This document shows positions 53,674 through 61,767 of a stretch of 64,000 nt of DNA, in pieces. A program made the position numbers and the translations under genes. Under the pieces are notes generated by a model that did no database searches, was not told where the DNA came from, and saw only the letters and a program-made list of their open reading frames with translations. The stretch lies in assembly GCF_011762095.1 (NCBI RefSeq), contig NZ_JAASQO010000012.1, positions 1-64,000 of the forward strand. The letters are read 5' to 3'. Origin of the DNA: Parvibaculum indicum (lineage in GTDB: Bacteria; Pseudomonadota; Alphaproteobacteria; Parvibaculales; Parvibaculaceae). The number at the start of each line of letters is the position of its first letter. Position 1 is the stretch's first letter.

Positions 53674-55059
53674 ATGATGCAGGTCACTGTAACGAACGCC
53701 GACGGTTTGAAGCGCGAACTGAAGATCGAAGTCCCGGCTGGCGAGCTGGAAGGAAAGCTGAGCTCGAAGCTCGAGGAGCTCAAGAACCAGGTTCGCCTGA
53801 AGGGCTTCCGCCCCGGCAAGGTGCCGATGAGCCATCTGCGCAAGACCTTCGGCAAGCAGGTCATGAGCGAAGTGATCCAGGAGACGGTGAGCGAAAGCTC
53901 GCAGAAGGCTCTTGAGGAACAGGAGCTGCGCCCGGCCTATCAGCCCAATATCGACCTGGAAGGCGAAGTCGAGCAGGTGATGGAAGGCAATGCCGACCTT
54001 GCCTACAAGATGACCTTCGAAATCGTCCCGGCCATCGAGCTTGCGGACTTCTCCACGATCTCCATCGAGAAGCCGGTCGCGGAAGTCACCGATGAAGAGG
54101 TGCAGGATTCGCTCAAGCGCCTCGCCGAAAACCAGAAGAATTTCGAGGCGCGCGCCGAAGGCGAAGCCGCCGAGAATGGCGACCAGCTCATCATCGATTT
54201 CATTGGCAAGATCGACGGCGAAGCCTTCGAGGGCGGGTCCGCCGAGGGCGCTGCGATCGAGCTTGGCGCCGGTCAGTTCATTCCCGGTTTCGAGGAACAG
54301 CTCGTCGGTGCCAAGGCCGGCGATGCGGTTGACGTGAAGGTCACTTTCCCGGCCGATTACGGCGCGGAGCACCTGGCCGGCAAGGATGCCGTCTTCGAGG
54401 TGAACGTGCAGGAAGTGAAGGCGCCCGCCGAGGTCACGATCGACGACGAGTTCGCCAAGCGCTTCGGCCTCGACGATCTCGAAAAGCTGAAGGAAATCCT
54501 CACCGAGCAGATCAAGTCGGACTTCGACCGCATGTCGCATCAGCACCTGAAGCGCGCCATGCTGGACAAGCTCGACGAGCTGCACGAGTTCGAGCTGCCG
54601 CCGGCCATGGTCCAGCAGGAATTCGACGCGATCTGGCATCAGCTCGAGCATGAGCTGGAGCACCAGAACAAGACGGTCGCCGATATGGACGAGCCGGAAG
54701 AGAAGGTCCGCGAGGAATACAACAAGATCGCCGAGCGCCGCGTGCGCCTCGGTCTCGTGCTGGCCGAAGTCGGCGAAAAGAACTCGATCTCCGTGACCGA
54801 GCAGGAACTGAGCCAGGCGCTCTCCGAGCGCGCCCGCCAGTTCCCGGGGCAGGAACGCCAGCTCTATGAGTTCTACCAGCAGAACCCGCAGGCCGTTCAG
54901 GAGCTTCGCGCGCCGATCTTCGAAGACAAGGTGGTGGACTACATCTCCGAACTGGCGACGGTCACCGAAAAGCCGGTGTCGAAGGACGAGCTGTTCGAGG
55001 ATCCCGACGCGGACGTCCCCGGCCACAACCACGATCATGACCACGACCACGATCACTGA
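53674..55059 (+). CDS. tig: Trigger factor with His/Asp-rich C-terminus
   Basis: Ribosome-bound chaperone with peptidyl-prolyl isomerase activity. N-terminal ribosome-binding domain with the signature GFRPGKVPMSHLRKTFG (residues about 45-61), FKBP-like PPIase domain (about 150-240: NGDQLIIDFIGKIDGEAFEGG, FIPGFEEQLVGAKAGD), and helical substrate-binding C-domain to about 440. The final residues PGHNHDHDHDHDH are a His/Asp repeat that could bind Ni or Zn. Start ATG 53674 or 53677. 461 aa, normal. A strong terminator follows. Confidence 0.97.
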   Translation: MMQVTVTNADGLKRELKIEVPAGELEGKLSSKLEELKNQVRLKGFRPGKVPMSHLRKTFGKQVMSEVIQETVSESSQKALEEQELRPAYQPNIDLEGEVEQVMEGNADLAYKMTFEIVPAIELADFSTISIEKPVAEVTDEEVQDSLKRLAENQKNFEARAEGEAAENGDQLIIDFIGKIDGEAFEGGSAEGAAIELGAGQFIPGFEEQLVGAKAGDAVDVKVTFPADYGAEHLAGKDAVFEVNVQEVKAPAEVTIDDEFAKRFGLDDLEKLKEILTEQIKSDFDRMSHQHLKRAMLDKLDELHEFELPPAMVQQEFDAIWHQLEHELEHQNKTVADMDEPEEKVREEYNKIAERRVRLGLVLAEVGEKNSISVTEQELSQALSERARQFPGQERQLYEFYQQNPQAVQELRAPIFEDKVVDYISELATVTEKPVSKDELFEDPDADVPGHNHDHDHDHDH

Positions 55060-55082
55060 GGATTTCGGTTCTCGGAACGTCG

Positions 55083-55117
55083 AAAGCCCGGAGCGATAGC
55101 TCCGGGCTTTTTGTTTT
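55083..55117 (+). terminator. Intrinsic terminator of tig
   Basis: Perfect 12-bp stem AAAGCCCGGAGC / GCTCCGGGCTTT with loop GATA, followed by TTGTTTTT. Confidence 0.93.
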
Positions 55118-55168
55118 TCGGAACGGCATCGCGATAGAATTGTCGCGGAGCGGGCAGGGAGATTTGAT

Positions 55169-56464
55169 TTGGCACGGGCGGTCGTTCTTGGAGGATATGG
55201 CCTGATTGGCTCAGCCTGCATGCGAGCTCTCGCGGAAGCGGGATTCGATGTCATTGGCATGGGCCGCAATGAACGGGTCGCGCGGCAGGTGATCCCTCAA
55301 GCCGAATGGCTGATCCGTGATCTCACCAGGGTCGACACGCATGAATGGCGAAAAATTCTGAGGGGTGTCGATGTCGTGGTGAACGCGGCGGGTGCCCTGC
55401 AGGAAAGTGCGAGAGACGACCTTTCCGGCATACATGAAACCATGGCGATGAGACTGGTTTCCGCCCTCGAAGGAAGTTCTGCCCGGCTGGTTCAGATATC
55501 GGCGGCGGGCGTATCGGAAGACGCCTCGACCGAGTTCTTCCGCTCGAAAGCACGGGGTGACGCCGCGATCCAGGCCTCCGGTGTTCGATGGGTCATCCTG
55601 CGGCCAACGCTCGTACTAAGCCCTTCCGCCTATGGCGGGACGGCGCTTTTGAGGGCTGCTGCCGCGTTGCCGATGGTTTCTCCCGCGATCCTGCCCGCCG
55701 CACAAATTCAGACCGTCTTTGTCGATGATCTCGCGCAGGCGGTTGTGCATTCGGCAAGGGGCGAAGTGGCGTCCGGCACCATAGCCGACATCACGGAAAA
55801 GGGGAGCCGAAGTCTGCCGGAAACCGTTGACGCATTGCGCCGTTGGCTGGGTTTCCCCGCGCCACGCTTTCGCCTGCCCATACCGGTCGCCGGCTTGTGG
55901 TTCCTTTCGCGAGTGGCAGACGGGCTTGGCTGGCTGGGGTGGCGTTCGCCGCTGCGCAGCAATGCAATCCATGCATTGCAGGGAGGCGTTCGCGGAAATC
56001 CCGCCACATGGGAAGCCGCAGGCGGGAGCGCTTGCCGCTCGCTGGAAGACAGCCTTGCAACCTTACCGTCCACGCTTCAGGAAAGATGGTTCGCGCGAGC
56101 TTATCTGATGTTCCCGATCATTATCGCGCTGCTGTCGTTTTTCTGGCTAAGTTCGGGCATCGTCGCATTGATCGGGTTCGACGCTGCGCAACGCTTATTG
56201 GTCGAGCATGGCGTCGTCGGCGCCGCGGCGAGTACCGTCATTGTCGGTGGCGCCCTGGCCGATATGGCGCTGGGCGCTGCTCTGTTGTGGCGACCATGGA
56301 CCCGTCATGCCTGCCTTGGCATGATCCTCCTGTCCGTGGCCTATCTCATCGGCGGTACGCTTGTGGCGCCGGATTTGTGGGCGGATCCGGCAGGGCCGTT
56401 CGTGAAAGTCCTTCCGGGTACCGGTCTTGCGCTTGTGGCGCTCGGTCTGGCGAATGAACGATGA
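55169..56464 (+). CDS. SDR-family oxidoreductase fused to a DoxX-like membrane domain
   Basis: 431 aa. The N-terminal 280 residues are an atypical NAD(P)-binding SDR: GGYGLIGSACMRALAEAGFDVIGMGRN at the Rossmann start, VVNAAGALQES, VQISAAGVSED, VRWVILRPTLVLSP. The classical YxxxK motif is weak (FRSKARGDAA), as in NDUFA9/complex I-type SDRs. The C-terminal 130 residues have four hydrophobic segments (AYLMFPIIIALLSFFWLSSGIVALIG onward) of DoxX-like type. The start is a TTG at 55169 behind GGGAG with 8-base spacing; no ATG fits as well. Overlaps DUF2269 by four bases. Confidence 0.8.
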   Translation: MARAVVLGGYGLIGSACMRALAEAGFDVIGMGRNERVARQVIPQAEWLIRDLTRVDTHEWRKILRGVDVVVNAAGALQESARDDLSGIHETMAMRLVSALEGSSARLVQISAAGVSEDASTEFFRSKARGDAAIQASGVRWVILRPTLVLSPSAYGGTALLRAAAALPMVSPAILPAAQIQTVFVDDLAQAVVHSARGEVASGTIADITEKGSRSLPETVDALRRWLGFPAPRFRLPIPVAGLWFLSRVADGLGWLGWRSPLRSNAIHALQGGVRGNPATWEAAGGSACRSLEDSLATLPSTLQERWFARAYLMFPIIIALLSFFWLSSGIVALIGFDAAQRLLVEHGVVGAAASTVIVGGALADMALGAALLWRPWTRHACLGMILLSVAYLIGGTLVAPDLWADPAGPFVKVLPGTGLALVALGLANER

Positions 56465-56928
56465 CCTACGAGCTTCTCCGTTTTCTGCATGTACTCGGTG
56501 CGACCGTTCTGCTCGGAACGGGGGCCGGCATCGCCTTCTTTATGGTCGTCTCGAACCGCAGCCGCGATCCTGCGCTCGTGGCGCATGTGGCGGGTATCGT
56601 CGTTCTGGCGGACACCGTTTTCACGGCGACGGCGGCCATTGCCCAGCCGATTACCGGTTACCTTCTTGCGCGGGAGGTCGGTTGGCCCTTGCTCGGCGGC
56701 TGGGTTGCCGTGTCTCTCGGCCTTTATGTCGTGGTCGGCGCGTTCTGGCTGCCTGTTGTCTGGATGCAGGTCCGGATGCGCAACCTCGCCGTCGCCGCGC
56801 GCGATGCAGGGGAAGAACTGCCTGCCGCCTACCACAAGCTCTACAGGGTGTGGTTCGCCTTCGGCTTTCCCGCCTTTTTCGCAGTCCTTGCGATTGTCTG
56901 GCTCATGCTTACCAAGCCCGCTATCTGA
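56461..56928 (+). CDS. DUF2269 integral membrane protein
   Basis: 155 aa, four hydrophobic helices (residues about 6-28, 42-65, 77-100, 130-150). The N-terminal block FLHVLGATVLLGTG is the DUF2269 signature, shared with several small predicted electron-transfer or heme-type membrane proteins; the function is unknown. Co-translated with the SDR-DoxX gene by an ATGA overlap, so the two should act together in the inner membrane. Confidence 0.82.
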   Translation: MTYELLRFLHVLGATVLLGTGAGIAFFMVVSNRSRDPALVAHVAGIVVLADTVFTATAAIAQPITGYLLAREVGWPLLGGWVAVSLGLYVVVGAFWLPVVWMQVRMRNLAVAARDAGEELPAAYHKLYRVWFAFGFPAFFAVLAIVWLMLTKPAI

Positions 56929-56935
56929 GCGTGCG

Positions 56936-57766
56936 TCACGCCGTATCCCATTCCGGTGCGACGCCGGCGGGATCGATGATCCGGCCCTCGGGCGTTTGCA
57001 GCGCGAAGATTCTGGCCATCTCGTCATCCGACAGCTCGAAGTCGAAGATTTCGATATTCTGCTTCTGGCGTTCCGGATTGCCGCTTTTGGGAATGGCGAC
57101 CACCCCGTCCTGCTGCACGAGCCAGCGCAGCGCGATCTGGCCCGGCGTCTTGCCATGTGCCCTGGCGATTTCCCCCATGACCTTGTCGTCGGAGACCTTG
57201 GCGTGGGCCAGCGGCGCATAGGCCGTGAGCGCCATGCCATGCGCGCGCAGCGCGCCCAGCACTTTCTCCTGCGACAGATAGGGGTGGTACTCCACCTGGT
57301 CGACCGCCAGCGGCACCGAGGTTAGGGAGGTCGCTTCCTCGATCAGCGGGGTTGTGAAATTGCTGATGCCGATATGTCTGGCAAGCCCCGCGGTCTGGAC
57401 CTCGTTGAGCGCCACCATGGTTTCCTTGAGGGGGATGGTCTTGCTCGGCCAGTGCAGCAGCAACAGGTCGACATAATCGGTCTTCAGCCGGGCGATGCTT
57501 TCCTTCGCTGCGGCGATCAGATCGCCATGGCCGAAATTGTCCGGCCAGATCTTGGTGGTCAGGAACACCTCTTCCCGGGCAACGGGCGCGGCGGCGATGC
57601 CTTTGCCGACCGCATCCTCATTGCCGTACATCTGCGCGGTATCGATGTGCCGATAGCCGATCCCGAGCGCATGCTTTACGGCTTCGGTGGCGTCCTCGTC
57701 CCTGAGCTGGAAGGTGCCCAGCCCAATGGCCGGGATTTTCGCGCCATTCGCTTCCACAATTTTCAT
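56936..57766 (-). CDS. Aldo/keto reductase
   Basis: 276-aa NADPH-dependent TIM-barrel reductase of the AKR5-like 2,5-diketo-gluconate reductase group. Catalytic tetrad: Asp and Tyr in HIDTAQMYGNE, Lys in TTKIW, His in LLLHWPS. NADPH site region VAIPKSGNPERQKQNIEIFDF (Lys-Ser and Arg). Substrate unknown. Divergent from the exported protein downstream; convergent with DUF2269, seven bases away. Confidence 0.93.
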   Translation of the reverse strand: MKIVEANGAKIPAIGLGTFQLRDEDATEAVKHALGIGYRHIDTAQMYGNEDAVGKGIAAAPVAREEVFLTTKIWPDNFGHGDLIAAAKESIARLKTDYVDLLLLHWPSKTIPLKETMVALNEVQTAGLARHIGISNFTTPLIEEATSLTSVPLAVDQVEYHPYLSQEKVLGALRAHGMALTAYAPLAHAKVSDDKVMGEIARAHGKTPGQIALRWLVQQDGVVAIPKSGNPERQKQNIEIFDFELSDDEMARIFALQTPEGRIIDPAGVAPEWDTA

Positions 57767-57985
57767 CTCGACACCTTTCGTCTCGCATTTCGGAGTTCGC
57801 CTTCAGTCGATATGGCGACGATGTGCCGGAGTACCACCCGTTCGCGTGCCGATCCGGCCACGCTTCTTTTATCGAAGCCGTCCTGAACGGGAAGCGGACG
57901 ATATTTGCACTTGCCGCCGTCGCTGTGCCTGTTGAAAGATAATATTCACCATATCTTGTCTTCGGCTGACTGGAGGGGCTTCGGG

Positions 57986-59275
57986 ATGATGTCCGCGCGC
58001 TCGATTGCGATTGCTTGTCTGACGATTGCGAATTGTCTTCTGTTGGGGCTTTCGCCCGCTCCGGCATCCGACTCTGCCACATCGGATTTCGACGGCTATT
58101 GGGGCGGGTCTTTCGGTTTCAAGCGGCCGAGCTGGGTGGCCGAGGCGCAGCTCAGGATCAGCGACGGCTATGGCGAGCTGGAATTTCAGACACGCGGTGC
58201 ACCGGCTTTCTACACGGCCGTGCGCGAAGGCCGCCTGACGCTGCCGGAACCGTTCCGGGTCGTTCCGGCAGACGTCTCCAATCCAAGGCCCGATGCGCGC
58301 TGCACCTATTATCTGAAGGTGGCGCCCGACGGCACGGCAAAGGCCATCGTCAAGACGGGCATGGTGACGTCGCTTTGCCCGTCCGATCCCCAAATCGATT
58401 TCAGGAGGCAGGAGGGCGAAGGCGGAACCCAACTCGTCTTCCATCTCGCTTCCGACACGCTGGAAGTGGAGTACGCGCTCTATGGCGGTTATCGTCCGCT
58501 CCGGGCCGGGGAGATGACGGTCATACCCGATAGTCTCGACGTTCTGGGCGTGCGTCCCGGTCACACTTTCGATGAAGCCCGGAGCATCCTGACCGACGCC
58601 GGCTACGTCCTGCTTCCGCCGGACGAGGGCGGCAAATCGACGAGAATTGCGGATGACTGGTCGCAGGAAGCCTTTGCCTTCGCGAAAGGGGAGCCATGGC
58701 CGTCGGGAAAAGACCGCACCTATCCGGACGCCATTCTGCTGGTCCTGGAAACGCAGGAAGCGGGCAAGGGCGCCTCGCCGGTCGCGCCCGCCGGGCGGCA
58801 GGTTCTCTATGTCCATCGCAAGGTCGCCTATCCGAAGGGCGAGGGGGTCGATGTCGCCGCCATGCGCGGCGCGCTTCAGAAGAAATACGGCCCCTCCGCG
58901 GGCATGACTTCAAGCGAAATGCGCGTCTATGACACGGCGGGGAATGTCGTGGCTCCACCGAATGCCACTCGTTTTCTGGCCCGATGCGCGAAGAGCAACC
59001 TGCAGGAGATCAACTATCAGATACCCGATAGTCCGGAGATCACGATCCACAAGAAGCTGATCGAGGACGTTCACCCCGATTGCGGTTCCACGGTCGACAT
59101 CGAATTCTGGAACCCGAAGAACAACATGACCGACCGCATGGAGGTCGGTGTCATGAATCACGCCATGATCTATCGGGATGCGTGGAAGCGAAGCCGGAAC
59201 GTCGTCCGCGCCGATGCGCTGGCGCAGTTCGAGCGTATGGCCTCGGAGGGGGCGGGCGACACGCCGGATCTCTAG
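57986..59275 (+). CDS. Exported protein of unknown function
   Basis: Not recognised. The start is ATG 57986 behind GGAGGGG, giving a Sec-type signal peptide (hydrophobic IAIACLTIANCLLLGL, then PAPASDS) and about 400 mature residues. The first part is a beta-rich FDGYWGGSFGFKRP domain resembling small extracellular sandwich domains. The middle holds DVLGVRPGHTFDEARSILTDAG, a D-x-x-G-x-x-x-G-x-x-x-x-E-A-x-x-x-L pattern seen in several uncharacterised periplasmic proteins. Four cysteines (in ARCTYY, SLCPSD, ARCAKS, PDCGST) could make two disulfides. No operon partner is obvious. Confidence 0.72.
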   Translation: MMSARSIAIACLTIANCLLLGLSPAPASDSATSDFDGYWGGSFGFKRPSWVAEAQLRISDGYGELEFQTRGAPAFYTAVREGRLTLPEPFRVVPADVSNPRPDARCTYYLKVAPDGTAKAIVKTGMVTSLCPSDPQIDFRRQEGEGGTQLVFHLASDTLEVEYALYGGYRPLRAGEMTVIPDSLDVLGVRPGHTFDEARSILTDAGYVLLPPDEGGKSTRIADDWSQEAFAFAKGEPWPSGKDRTYPDAILLVLETQEAGKGASPVAPAGRQVLYVHRKVAYPKGEGVDVAAMRGALQKKYGPSAGMTSSEMRVYDTAGNVVAPPNATRFLARCAKSNLQEINYQIPDSPEITIHKKLIEDVHPDCGSTVDIEFWNPKNNMTDRMEVGVMNHAMIYRDAWKRSRNVVRADALAQFERMASEGAGDTPDL

Positions 59276-59512
59276 CTCCGCAAGGGCCCGGTGCGCCCGG
59301 CGCGAAGGGGATGGGCCGGCTGAAAATTTTTTTCGGCACGACCCCAAAAACCGGTTGCGTCGCGGCCCGGGAAGCCTTATTTCCGCGCCTCACAAGACGC
59401 ACACGCACGTGCCGCTGGCCCCTAGTTGGTTTATGCAACGACGTTAAACGTCTTTTTTGGATCACGCCGGTCGTAACGGAAAAATGACCGGGTCTGAAAA
59501 AGGGTGTTTACG
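59276..59512 (+). promoter_or_regulatory. Leader region of ornithine decarboxylase with Arg-rich reading frames and hairpin
   Basis: 237 bases. An open frame from ATG 59311 to TGA 59485-59487 (58 codons) contains an Arg-rich stretch RLTRRTRTCR and stops 25 bases before the decarboxylase start. A tiny frame ATG 59433 reads Met-Gln-Arg-Arg-stop. Its Arg codons run into a hairpin GACGT-TAA-ACGTC (59440-59452) followed by six T, terminator-like. Alphaproteobacterial ornithine decarboxylases often have an RNA leader called speF (Rfam RF00518). I cannot confirm membership by eye. Confidence 0.45.
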
Positions 59513-60784: not shown

Positions 60785-61119
60785 GGGGGCGGGCGCCCCG
60801 AGACCGGGAGCGCCGGAAGAGCCGCGGAGCTCGGCATCTGCCCCCGCGTCGGGCGAGGCGGACGGCCCGTCCTGAGGCGGTTCCGGAAAATGCATAAGAC
60901 CCTTCTGCCGGAGGGGAGGAAATCTTCGGCATCTGACCCTATATTGGTCTATGCGTTAGAGTTCTGAACCGACCCTTTACCGAATCACATTAGCCATATT
61001 CGTCAGGTGCCTTGCGGCGCGGGGATGGAGCGAAGGGGCTGGGAGGCCCCGGCCCGCAGCCGCTCCATGCCGGACCCAAGCCCGAAGATACTCAAGAGAG
61101 CCGACGCTCAGGAGTGACC
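60785..61119. other. Intergenic region and structured leader of clpP
   Basis: 335 bases, no gene. Ahead of clpP it can form a nested hairpin: outer arms ATGGAGCG (61025-61032) and CGCTCCAT (61061-61068), inner arms GGGGC (61035-61039) and GCCCC (61046-61050). The inner stem competes with GGCTG (61037-61041) / CAGCC (61057-61061), so two folds are possible. A CCTATATT word at 60938 resembles a heat-shock -10 but has no matching -35. No clear terminator for the decarboxylase was found. Confidence 0.5.
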
Positions 61120-61767
61120 ATGAAAGACCCGCTCGATATGTACATGAACCTCGTGCCGATGGTGGTCGAGCAGACCAATCGGGGCGAACGCGCCTACGAC
61201 ATCTTTTCGCGCTTGCTGAAGGAGCGGATCATTTTCGTGGCCGGCCCCGTGGAAGACGGCATGGCCACGCTGATTACCGCGCAGCTCCTTTTCCTTGAGG
61301 CGGAAAACCCCAAAAAAGAAATCTCGATGTACATCAACTCGCCCGGCGGCGTGGTGACGAGTGGCCTGTCGATCTACGACACCATGCAGCATATCCGCCC
61401 GCCGGTTTCGACCGTGTGCATGGGCCAGGCCGCCTCCATGGGCTCGCTGCTGCTGGCCGCCGGTGAAAAGGGCATGCGCTTCGCGCTGCCCAACGCCCGG
61501 ATTATGGTGCACCAGCCCTCCGGCGGCTTTCAGGGCCAGGCCACCGATATCGAGATTCACGCGCGCGAAACCCTCGCCATTCGCGAGCGACTCAACCAGA
61601 TCTATGTGAATCACACCGGCCAGTCGCTGAAGGCGGTCGAGGATGCGCTGGAACGCGATAACTTCATGACCCCCGAAAGGGCCAAGGAATTCGGCCTGAT
61701 CGACCATGTCGGCGTGGCGCGCGGCCCCTCCGAAGAGCCGTCCCCCTCGGAAGACAAGTCGGAGTAA
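61120..61767 (+). CDS. clpP: ATP-dependent Clp protease proteolytic subunit
   Basis: Serine protease subunit of ClpXP/ClpAP. 215 aa. Catalytic triad: Ser in [11 protein letters not shown], His in [11 protein letters not shown], Asp in ERDNFM. Additional signature INSPGG. ATG 61120 is supported by AGGAGTG at 61109; longer frames into the leader are not coding. The C-terminus is an acidic disordered tail ([13 protein letters not shown]). Separated from tig by five unrelated genes, and from clpX by about 285 bases. Confidence 0.98.

Follow-up and report, generated by a model that had tools for sequence, protein, structure and literature searches.

A four-helix DUF2269 protein remotely homologous to HemJ and its SDR-DoxX fusion partner, a possible NADPH-linked membrane electron-transfer unit in Parvibaculum indicum

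The window analysed here, a stretch of 64,000 nucleotides from Parvibaculum indicum (contig NZ_JAASQO010000012.1, positions 1 to 64,000), contains a gene for a short-chain dehydrogenase/reductase (SDR) domain fused to a DoxX-like membrane domain, followed by a gene for a DUF2269 protein. The features of the locus are as follows.

55169..56464, forward strand: SDR-DoxX fusion gene, TTG start, 431 amino acids (open reading frame call, Pfam and a 46-row alignment).
55175..56068, forward strand: NDUFA9-type SDR domain, residues about 3-300, with Gly8, Gly11, Gly14, Arg33, Asp51, Ser111 and Lys127.
55535..55537, forward strand: codon of Phe123, at the position of the SDR catalytic tyrosine (the 46 fusions are split evenly, 23 with Phe and 23 with Tyr).
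56135..56428, forward strand: DoxX_3 domain inside the fusion gene, about four predicted membrane helices (hydropathy and loop charges).
56461..56464, forward strand: ATGA overlap of the fusion gene and the DUF2269 gene, four shared bases.
56461..56928, forward strand: DUF2269 gene, ATG start, 155 amino acids, four-helix membrane protein and predicted homologue of the HemJ superfamily.
56488..56490, forward strand: codon of His10, candidate heme ligand, invariant in 58/58 sequences and aligned with the invariant histidine of HemJ.
56905..56907, forward strand: codon of Met149, possible second ligand, invariant in 58/58 sequences and absent from HemJ.
55082..55111, forward strand: terminator-like hairpin 3' of tig, a 13-pair stem with a T tail.
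55060..59503, no strand: lineage-specific insertion that separates tig from the decarboxylase gene, containing the pair, an aldo/keto reductase gene and a gene of 456 codons.

The original prediction described an SDR fused to a DoxX-like domain and a DUF2269 gene overlapping it by four bases, and both the reading frame and the Pfam matches agree with this. The fusion protein matches DoxX_3 (PF13781) at residues 323-420 with E=1e-19 (71.4 bits against a curated cut-off of 25, covering positions 1-100 of the 102 in the profile), NAD_binding_10 with 5e-15 and Epimerase with 5e-12, while the second protein matches DUF2269 (PF10027) with E=1e-58 (197.9 bits against a curated cut-off of 28, profile positions 2-150 of 150). 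The two genes share the bases ATGA, which suggests that their translation is coupled. The hairpin at 55082-55111 separates them from tig, and the pair therefore probably forms its own transcription unit. The stop codon of the DUF2269 gene is located 7 bases from the convergent aldo/keto reductase gene. This gene (56936-57766) is unmatched in the fetched tig loci of the congeners, and the 456-residue open reading frame in the same insertion (57905-59275) has no Pfam family at E<=0.01.

The pair was originally placed between tig and clpP. Both genes do flank it (tig at 53674-55059 and clpP at 61012-61767), but three more genes, encoding the aldo/keto reductase, the 456-residue protein and an ornithine-decarboxylase type protein, intervene before clpP, and the setting is that of an insertion. 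The tig-clpP synteny was rejected as a clue to function, since the insertion is lineage-specific and the synteny lies outside the system. The 14 checkable congeners have no room for the pair: 376-498 bp separate tig from the start of the decarboxylase gene in 13 of them, and 299 bp separate it from the start of clpP in the other; for the remaining 12, the fetched stretch was too short, was without tig or was without both genes. No SDR or DUF2269 gene was found in the fetched congener tig loci besides the window's own. Among 27 genomes of the genus, a full match to the fusion is present only in the window's genome and in G470, where it shows 33% identity and is located about 206 kb from tig. 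The GC content at third codon positions is 0.657 for the SDR gene, 0.744 for the DUF2269 gene, 0.751 for the 456-residue gene and 0.812 for the aldo/keto reductase gene, as compared to 0.80-0.84 for nnrDE, tig, odc and clpP. Furthermore, the window's DUF2269 and SDR are closer to those of L022 from another family (71% and 54%) than to those of L008 from the same family (60% and 50%). The patchy presence in the genus, the base composition and the closer likeness to L022 together suggest that the pair was acquired horizontally.

At class level, 37 of 190 genomes have a DUF2269 (PF10027) match above the cut-off; at phylum level, 67 of 299 sampled genomes have one, and 49 have a DoxX_3 match above its cut-off. 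The two families are closely linked: 49 of 54 DoxX_3 matches in the phylum sample, the window's own genome included, have a DUF2269 match no more than 2.5 kb away, and the five that do not are open frames of 142-186 amino acids, which are therefore too short to be fusions. Conversely, 48 of 56 DUF2269 matches of at least 140 bits adjoin DoxX_3 (own genome included), as does 1 of 27 weaker matches over the cut-off, in a count that omits 12 DUF2269 rows scoring under the family cut-off. All DoxX_3 matches over the cut-off in the class sample (18/18, own included) are linked to DUF2269. Among the strong class loci that were fetched, the window excluded, a full-length fusion adjoins DUF2269 in 25 of 28, in 24 of these upstream on the same strand and in one in swapped order, and the genes overlap in 19 of the 24 loci with the fusion directly upstream (starts chosen by script). 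A profile built here scores DUF2269 at no less than 150 bits in 50 of the fetched loci, and 42 of these have SDR and DoxX both adjacent, as do all 14 plasmid loci. The fusion is thus present in relatives and the pair is widely conserved. An SDR match was found in 126 plasmid records, of which 74 are from Sinorhizobium and 13 are predicted to be conjugative; the match spans 80% or more of the protein in 112 records.

The alignments contain 58 of 66 distinct rows for DUF2269, 46 of 48 for the fusions and, for HemJ, 21 of 29 open reading frames found at 30 loci. Pairwise distances in DUF2269 and SDR correlate with r=0.62 over 45 pairs (uncorrected for species history), near the 0.67 obtained for SDR and DoxX on the same chain. 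In the full-text literature, which leaves most subscription journals outside its scope, we found no functional study of the pair.

A few loci deviate from this arrangement. The gene order is swapped at L224, and L229 is frameshifted. At L126 (8380-9272, genome G250) and at L229 (2702-3985, one S. meliloti strain), the SDR part is broken by a frame change, which may reflect decay or sequencing error. DUF2269 has no recognised partner at L095, L144, L145, L289 and L291. Two DUF2269 genes occur in tandem, with no SDR or DoxX and with a diverged second copy, in G321, G239 and G243, which belong to the same genus, as exemplified by L097 (6198-7137) and L098 (6118-7054). At L124 (7768-9922), a DUF2269-like gene, an SDR-DoxX gene and a DUF2269 gene follow in a row, placing two HemJ-superfamily proteins around one fusion.

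The SDR domain was predicted to be of an atypical NDUFA9 type, and the sequence comparisons agree on both points. Among the 30 best matches of the 46-fusion profile to solved structures, 27 are named as complex I subunits of the NDUFA9, 39-kDa or NUEM type; the other three are named as epimerase-type only, and all precede the first other protein. Gly8, Gly11, Gly14, Gly75 and Ser111 are invariant in the fusions (46/46), and Lys127 (45/46) and Arg33 (44/46) are nearly so. The Ser-Tyr-Lys triad of classical active SDRs is incomplete in the window, where Ser111 and Lys127 are kept and Phe123 replaces the tyrosine. While the fusions are evenly split between Phe and Tyr at residue 123, the NDUFA9-like paralogues have a tyrosine at the active-site position in 17 of 17 cases. 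The fusion SDR shares with NDUFA9, the 39-kDa accessory subunit of complex I, the glycine motif for NADP binding and Arg33. It differs in the fused DoxX_3 domain, in the Tyr/Phe split, in having Asp51 in the window versus Asn51 in 17 bacterial NDUFA9-like proteins, and perhaps in its separate branch in the tree.

In the phylogeny, inferred with FastTree from the fusions and 17 of 23 NDUFA9-like loci, the NDUFA9-like proteins split from all 46 fusions; the tree contains neither an outside group nor mitochondrial NDUFA9. One of the NDUFA9-like proteins (L067) was checked against solved structures, and its matches are NDUFA9-type chains of complex I. By parsimony, residue 123 has changed between Tyr and Phe six times, as compared to a mean of 15.9 and a minimum of 11 for shuffled labels, and the large clade to which the window belongs is uniformly Phe. 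Since the binding residues are kept while the tyrosine is not, NAD(P)H binding appears to be retained and the classical proton donor to be dispensable. The window's clade thus probably consists of SDRs without classical SDR catalysis, and because the tyrosine has been lost, NADPH would in this clade probably be a tightly bound structural or gating cofactor.

The DUF2269 protein appears to be a remote homologue of HemJ (UPF0093, PF03653), a membrane protoporphyrinogen oxidase. HemJ is a b-type heme protein. A profile of the 58 DUF2269 sequences matches 21 of 21 HemJ proteins with up to 16.5 bits (median 5.0), against control maxima of 2.5 for shuffled sequences, 4.6 for reversed sequences and 1.0 for DoxX helices. 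In the other direction, the HemJ profile matches 57 of 58 DUF2269 proteins with up to 18.2 bits (median 7.5), and the control maxima are 3.3, 1.7 and 4.2, respectively. The two families are similar in length and can be aligned co-linearly over four helices, with a histidine in helix 1, a glycine that ends helix 2, a tryptophan that starts helix 3 and mostly Lys/Arg-Pro at the C-terminal end. In a joint alignment of 15 DUF2269 proteins, 8 intermediates and 7 HemJ proteins, the helix-1 histidine and the helix-2 glycine are present in all rows and the helix-3 tryptophan in every row except one intermediate. The invariant residues of DUF2269 are His10, Gly66, Trp81 and Met149, of which His10 and Met149 are found in 58/58 sequences; Met149 is not common to HemJ.

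The intermediates were taken from fetched loci with weak Pfam matches, and 5 of 20 match both profiles at E<=0.001 (E for a small set), while the other 15 match at most one of the two at this threshold. Their scores against the DUF2269 and HemJ profiles are 63 and 27 bits for L210, 35 and 25 for L198, 56 and 20 for L199, 16 and 45 for L203, and 21 and 33 for L196, where some matches cover part of the profile. These proteins suggest a wider HemJ-like superfamily, and we presume that Pfam may place DUF2269, HemJ and the membrane domain of PuuD in one clan. Proteins between DUF2269 and HemJ, some of them in long frames with other regions, were also observed at L196, L197, L203 and L205.

Other comparisons gave weaker or no signals. 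The two family alignments were matched by hhalign with 7.5% probability (E 0.0047), and blastp of the window's DUF2269 against the HemJ of its own genome gave no match. The HemJ family PF03653 does not match the window's DUF2269 at E<=10, and 2 of 58 relatives match it with a best E of 0.029. Against solved chains, the best E was 0.32 for the DUF2269 profile and 0.34 for the DoxX part (one query sequence), and the HemJ profile had no match at E<=1. A DUF2269 model built from three sequences (pLDDT 82, pTM 0.72) has helices at residues 3-33, 37-73, 81-116 and 122-151. Foldseek gave no match to it at E<=0.001, and the VIA-align rows are mostly generic helical bundles, among which de novo designs reach a Z of 15.9. 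A model from a single sequence was poor (pTM 0.42), and its Foldseek matches were discarded as meaningless.

DUF2269 also differs from HemJ in several respects. It has its own GTGxG and Trp-Leu-Pro-Val-Val motifs along with Met149, and its alignment lacks the YLPRLFVYH block and the Asn-Glu-x-Pro motif present in HemJ. The partner genes are different, and the two proteins coexist in 13 of 15 DUF2269 genomes tested. A search for heme ligands in DUF2269, proposed along with the original prediction, returned the invariant His10, aligned with the HemJ histidine, and the invariant Met149, while heme binding itself stays a prediction from sequence. No cofactor motif beyond this one His and one Met was found in DUF2269.

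The loop charges suggest how the two proteins are placed in the membrane. In DUF2269, loops 1-2 and 3-4 have mean charges of +1.05 and +1.41 and are predicted to be inside, while the N-terminal end (-0.74) and loop 2-3 (-0.57) are predicted to be outside; the C-terminal end (+0.76) is positive, which is a misfit with an outside location. Loop 2-3 of the DoxX part has a mean charge of +2.28 and is predicted to be inside, hence so is the SDR domain. The predicted cytoplasmic SDR fits the proposal of a soluble nucleotide-binding domain facing a membrane pair. In this topology, His10, Gly66, Trp81 and Met149 would be turned toward the outer side, like the conserved DoxX loop P401-K413.

The unit is modular, with sometimes three genes and in a few loci four. 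SDR and DoxX are encoded by separate genes ahead of DUF2269 at L045, L053 and L288, and also at L142, where an inserted gene precedes DUF2269. In four genomes (G001, G171, G195 and G386), a Sacchrp_dh_NADP protein is encoded in the DUF2269 cluster and the SDR is absent; in G001, its gene overlaps the DUF2269 gene by 4 nt. Thus, one NADP-binding module stands in for another while DUF2269 stays. The clusters in G171, G195 and G386 also encode a DCC1-like thiol-disulfide domain, and that in G195 encodes two DoxX_3 proteins. At L128 and L218, an open reading frame with DAO and Rieske domains overlaps the start of SDR-DoxX by 4 nt, at L225 on a Legionella plasmid such a frame starts 20 bp after DUF2269, and at L099 it is located about 1 kb upstream. 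This adjacency is rare (at least 4 of 64 loci, three of them operonic), and the count is a lower bound because the FAD-Rieske proteins were found with one query. The idea of a two-component membrane redox unit is therefore supported in its redox part, by the HemJ homology, the FAD-Rieske neighbours and the exchange of NADP proteins, while two components have given way to a modular unit of up to four genes.

There are also hints of a role under stress, which we treat as a lead only. Of the 12 annotated plasmid stretches, among them two records each from R. etli and S. meliloti, 4 have genes for ferritin-like proteins, Mn-catalase, DUF892 or DUF4142 beside the pair; these families are not among the recurrent ones in the scanned chromosomal neighbour frames. 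An FAD protein with a pairwise identity of 38-49% is common to the stretches from Bosea, R. etli CFN 42 and Legionella, and its Bosea version has a Pyr_redox_2 domain. We take GGAAC-N16/17-CGTT to be the promoter consensus of the EcfG general stress regulon. A motif matching it at 8 or more of 9 positions is located upstream in 8 of 59 loci, as compared to 1.7 expected from mononucleotide shuffles; in this count, L019 and L020 are not independent of each other, nor are L217 and L228. The exact motif is present in 2 of 52 loci (L019 and L020), as compared to 0.1 expected. In the window, no such motif was found at 8/9 or better. PMC3616915 did not confirm that SMb20413 depends on RpoE2, and PMC6180224 gave no match for the locus tags or DoxX.

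We propose, with a probability of about 0.5, that the pair forms a membrane unit for NADPH-linked electron transfer, with a HemJ-superfamily protein at its core. The NDUFA9-type SDR would lie on the cytoplasmic side of the membrane and bind NAD(P)H, probably in the form of NADPH; the DoxX domain would tether it to the membrane and pack with DUF2269. Toward the outer side, DUF2269 probably holds one heme b, with His10 and perhaps Met149 as ligands. The heme would exchange electrons with a soluble donor or a hydrophobic substrate and with the quinone pool. In the window's clade, NADPH would have the structural or gating role suggested above, and a separate FAD-Rieske protein may supply flavin where electron pairs must be split. 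The unit would be accessory and horizontally spread, and perhaps used under stress. A bolder form can be put forward only tentatively: an undescribed modular transmembrane electron carrier, in which an NADPH module (either the NDUFA9-type SDR-DoxX or one of saccharopine-dehydrogenase type), in some genomes with an FAD-Rieske protein, drives a HemJ-superfamily heme protein and sends electrons to the outer face under oxidative stress.

The retention of Ser111 and Lys127 in nearly all fusions and of the tyrosine in half of them, and the lack of a proven cofactor in DoxX_3 and DUF2269, are what would be expected if the SDR were a conventional reductase that uses NAD(P)H on a lipid-soluble substrate, such as a quinone or aldehyde, and for which DoxX and DUF2269 serve as anchor and shape a membrane site without heme. 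We consider this unlikely, as residue 123 has changed about six times on the tree with Phe throughout the window's large clade, the HemJ histidine is kept in every aligned DUF2269, and four genomes have replaced the SDR by another NADP protein and retained DUF2269. The kinship with NDUFA9 instead invites the explanation that the fusion carries fixed NADPH and serves complex I or a different respiratory complex as an accessory or assembly factor; according to PMC8762328, the NADPH of NDUFA9 is bound at the membrane, above the quinone tunnel, and no catalysis by NDUFA9 has been shown. However, most relatives and the window's own genome have a separate short SDR match, the one checked being of NDUFA9 type, the partner of the fusion is DUF2269, its distribution is patchy, and a nuo gene was seen once in the 12 annotated plasmid stretches, all of which makes such a factor very unlikely.

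A similarly low probability is given to DUF2269 as a porphyrinogen enzyme, a second protoporphyrinogen or coproporphyrinogen dehydrogenase with SDR-DoxX as its electron acceptor module. The HemJ homology fits, and so does G003, which has the pair but neither a HemJ match nor a TIGR00562 match over the cut-off, a family for which none was found in the 8 genomes searched. Yet the window's genome has its own HemJ, as do most of the DUF2269 genomes tested, and the two HemJ motifs are missing from DUF2269. A role of DUF2269 as a replacement for HemJ is disfavoured by the same co-occurrence; the two genomes without HemJ are G171, which is 69% complete, and G003, which is 97% complete and whose congener G139 has it.

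As compared to other DoxX proteins, with which the window's protein shares DoxX_3 above the cut-off, the fusion differs in being joined to an NADP-binding SDR and in lying nearly always beside DUF2269. MauE (PF07291) matches two separate DoxX proteins below its cut-off. For the membrane domain of the PuuD urate oxidase (DUF989), a distant profile similarity to DUF2269 is reported (E 0.15), from which PuuD differs by having more helices and a fused cytochrome c domain (PMC4562309). HemJ is referred to as the least well-characterised of the protoporphyrin-forming systems in PMC7242693. The NADPH-linked electron-transfer unit would provide DUF2269 and DoxX_3, two widespread domains whose function is unknown, with an identity open to testing, and would also show an NDUFA9-type fold working outside complex I. 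If the heme prediction is true, the HemJ superfamily reaches beyond heme biosynthesis, and the pair offers a genetically simple, NADPH-linked model of electron exchange by HemJ-like proteins. Should the modular carrier be real, there would be a broader class of small heme oxidoreductases in the membrane, with HemJ and PuuD as its specialised relatives.

A conserved operon beyond the pair was rejected so far, as few neighbour families recur. The scan picked 342 open reading frames within 3.5 kb, of which 144 were scanned with Pfam, and considered the 25 commonest families of 64 and 91. Recurrent among these are SSB (5), MarR_2 (5), short-chain and other NAD-binding dehydrogenases and a few pairs. 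The tally also contains one unassigned member of DDE_Tnp_1_5, which is relevant to L142 (9657-12501), where the gene between DoxX and DUF2269 appears, by look only, to be a transposase. A GbsR/MarR-type regulator is encoded upstream of the unit in seven genomes and in G247, and near or directly upstream at L093, L113, L127, L131, L137, L141, L142 and L288.
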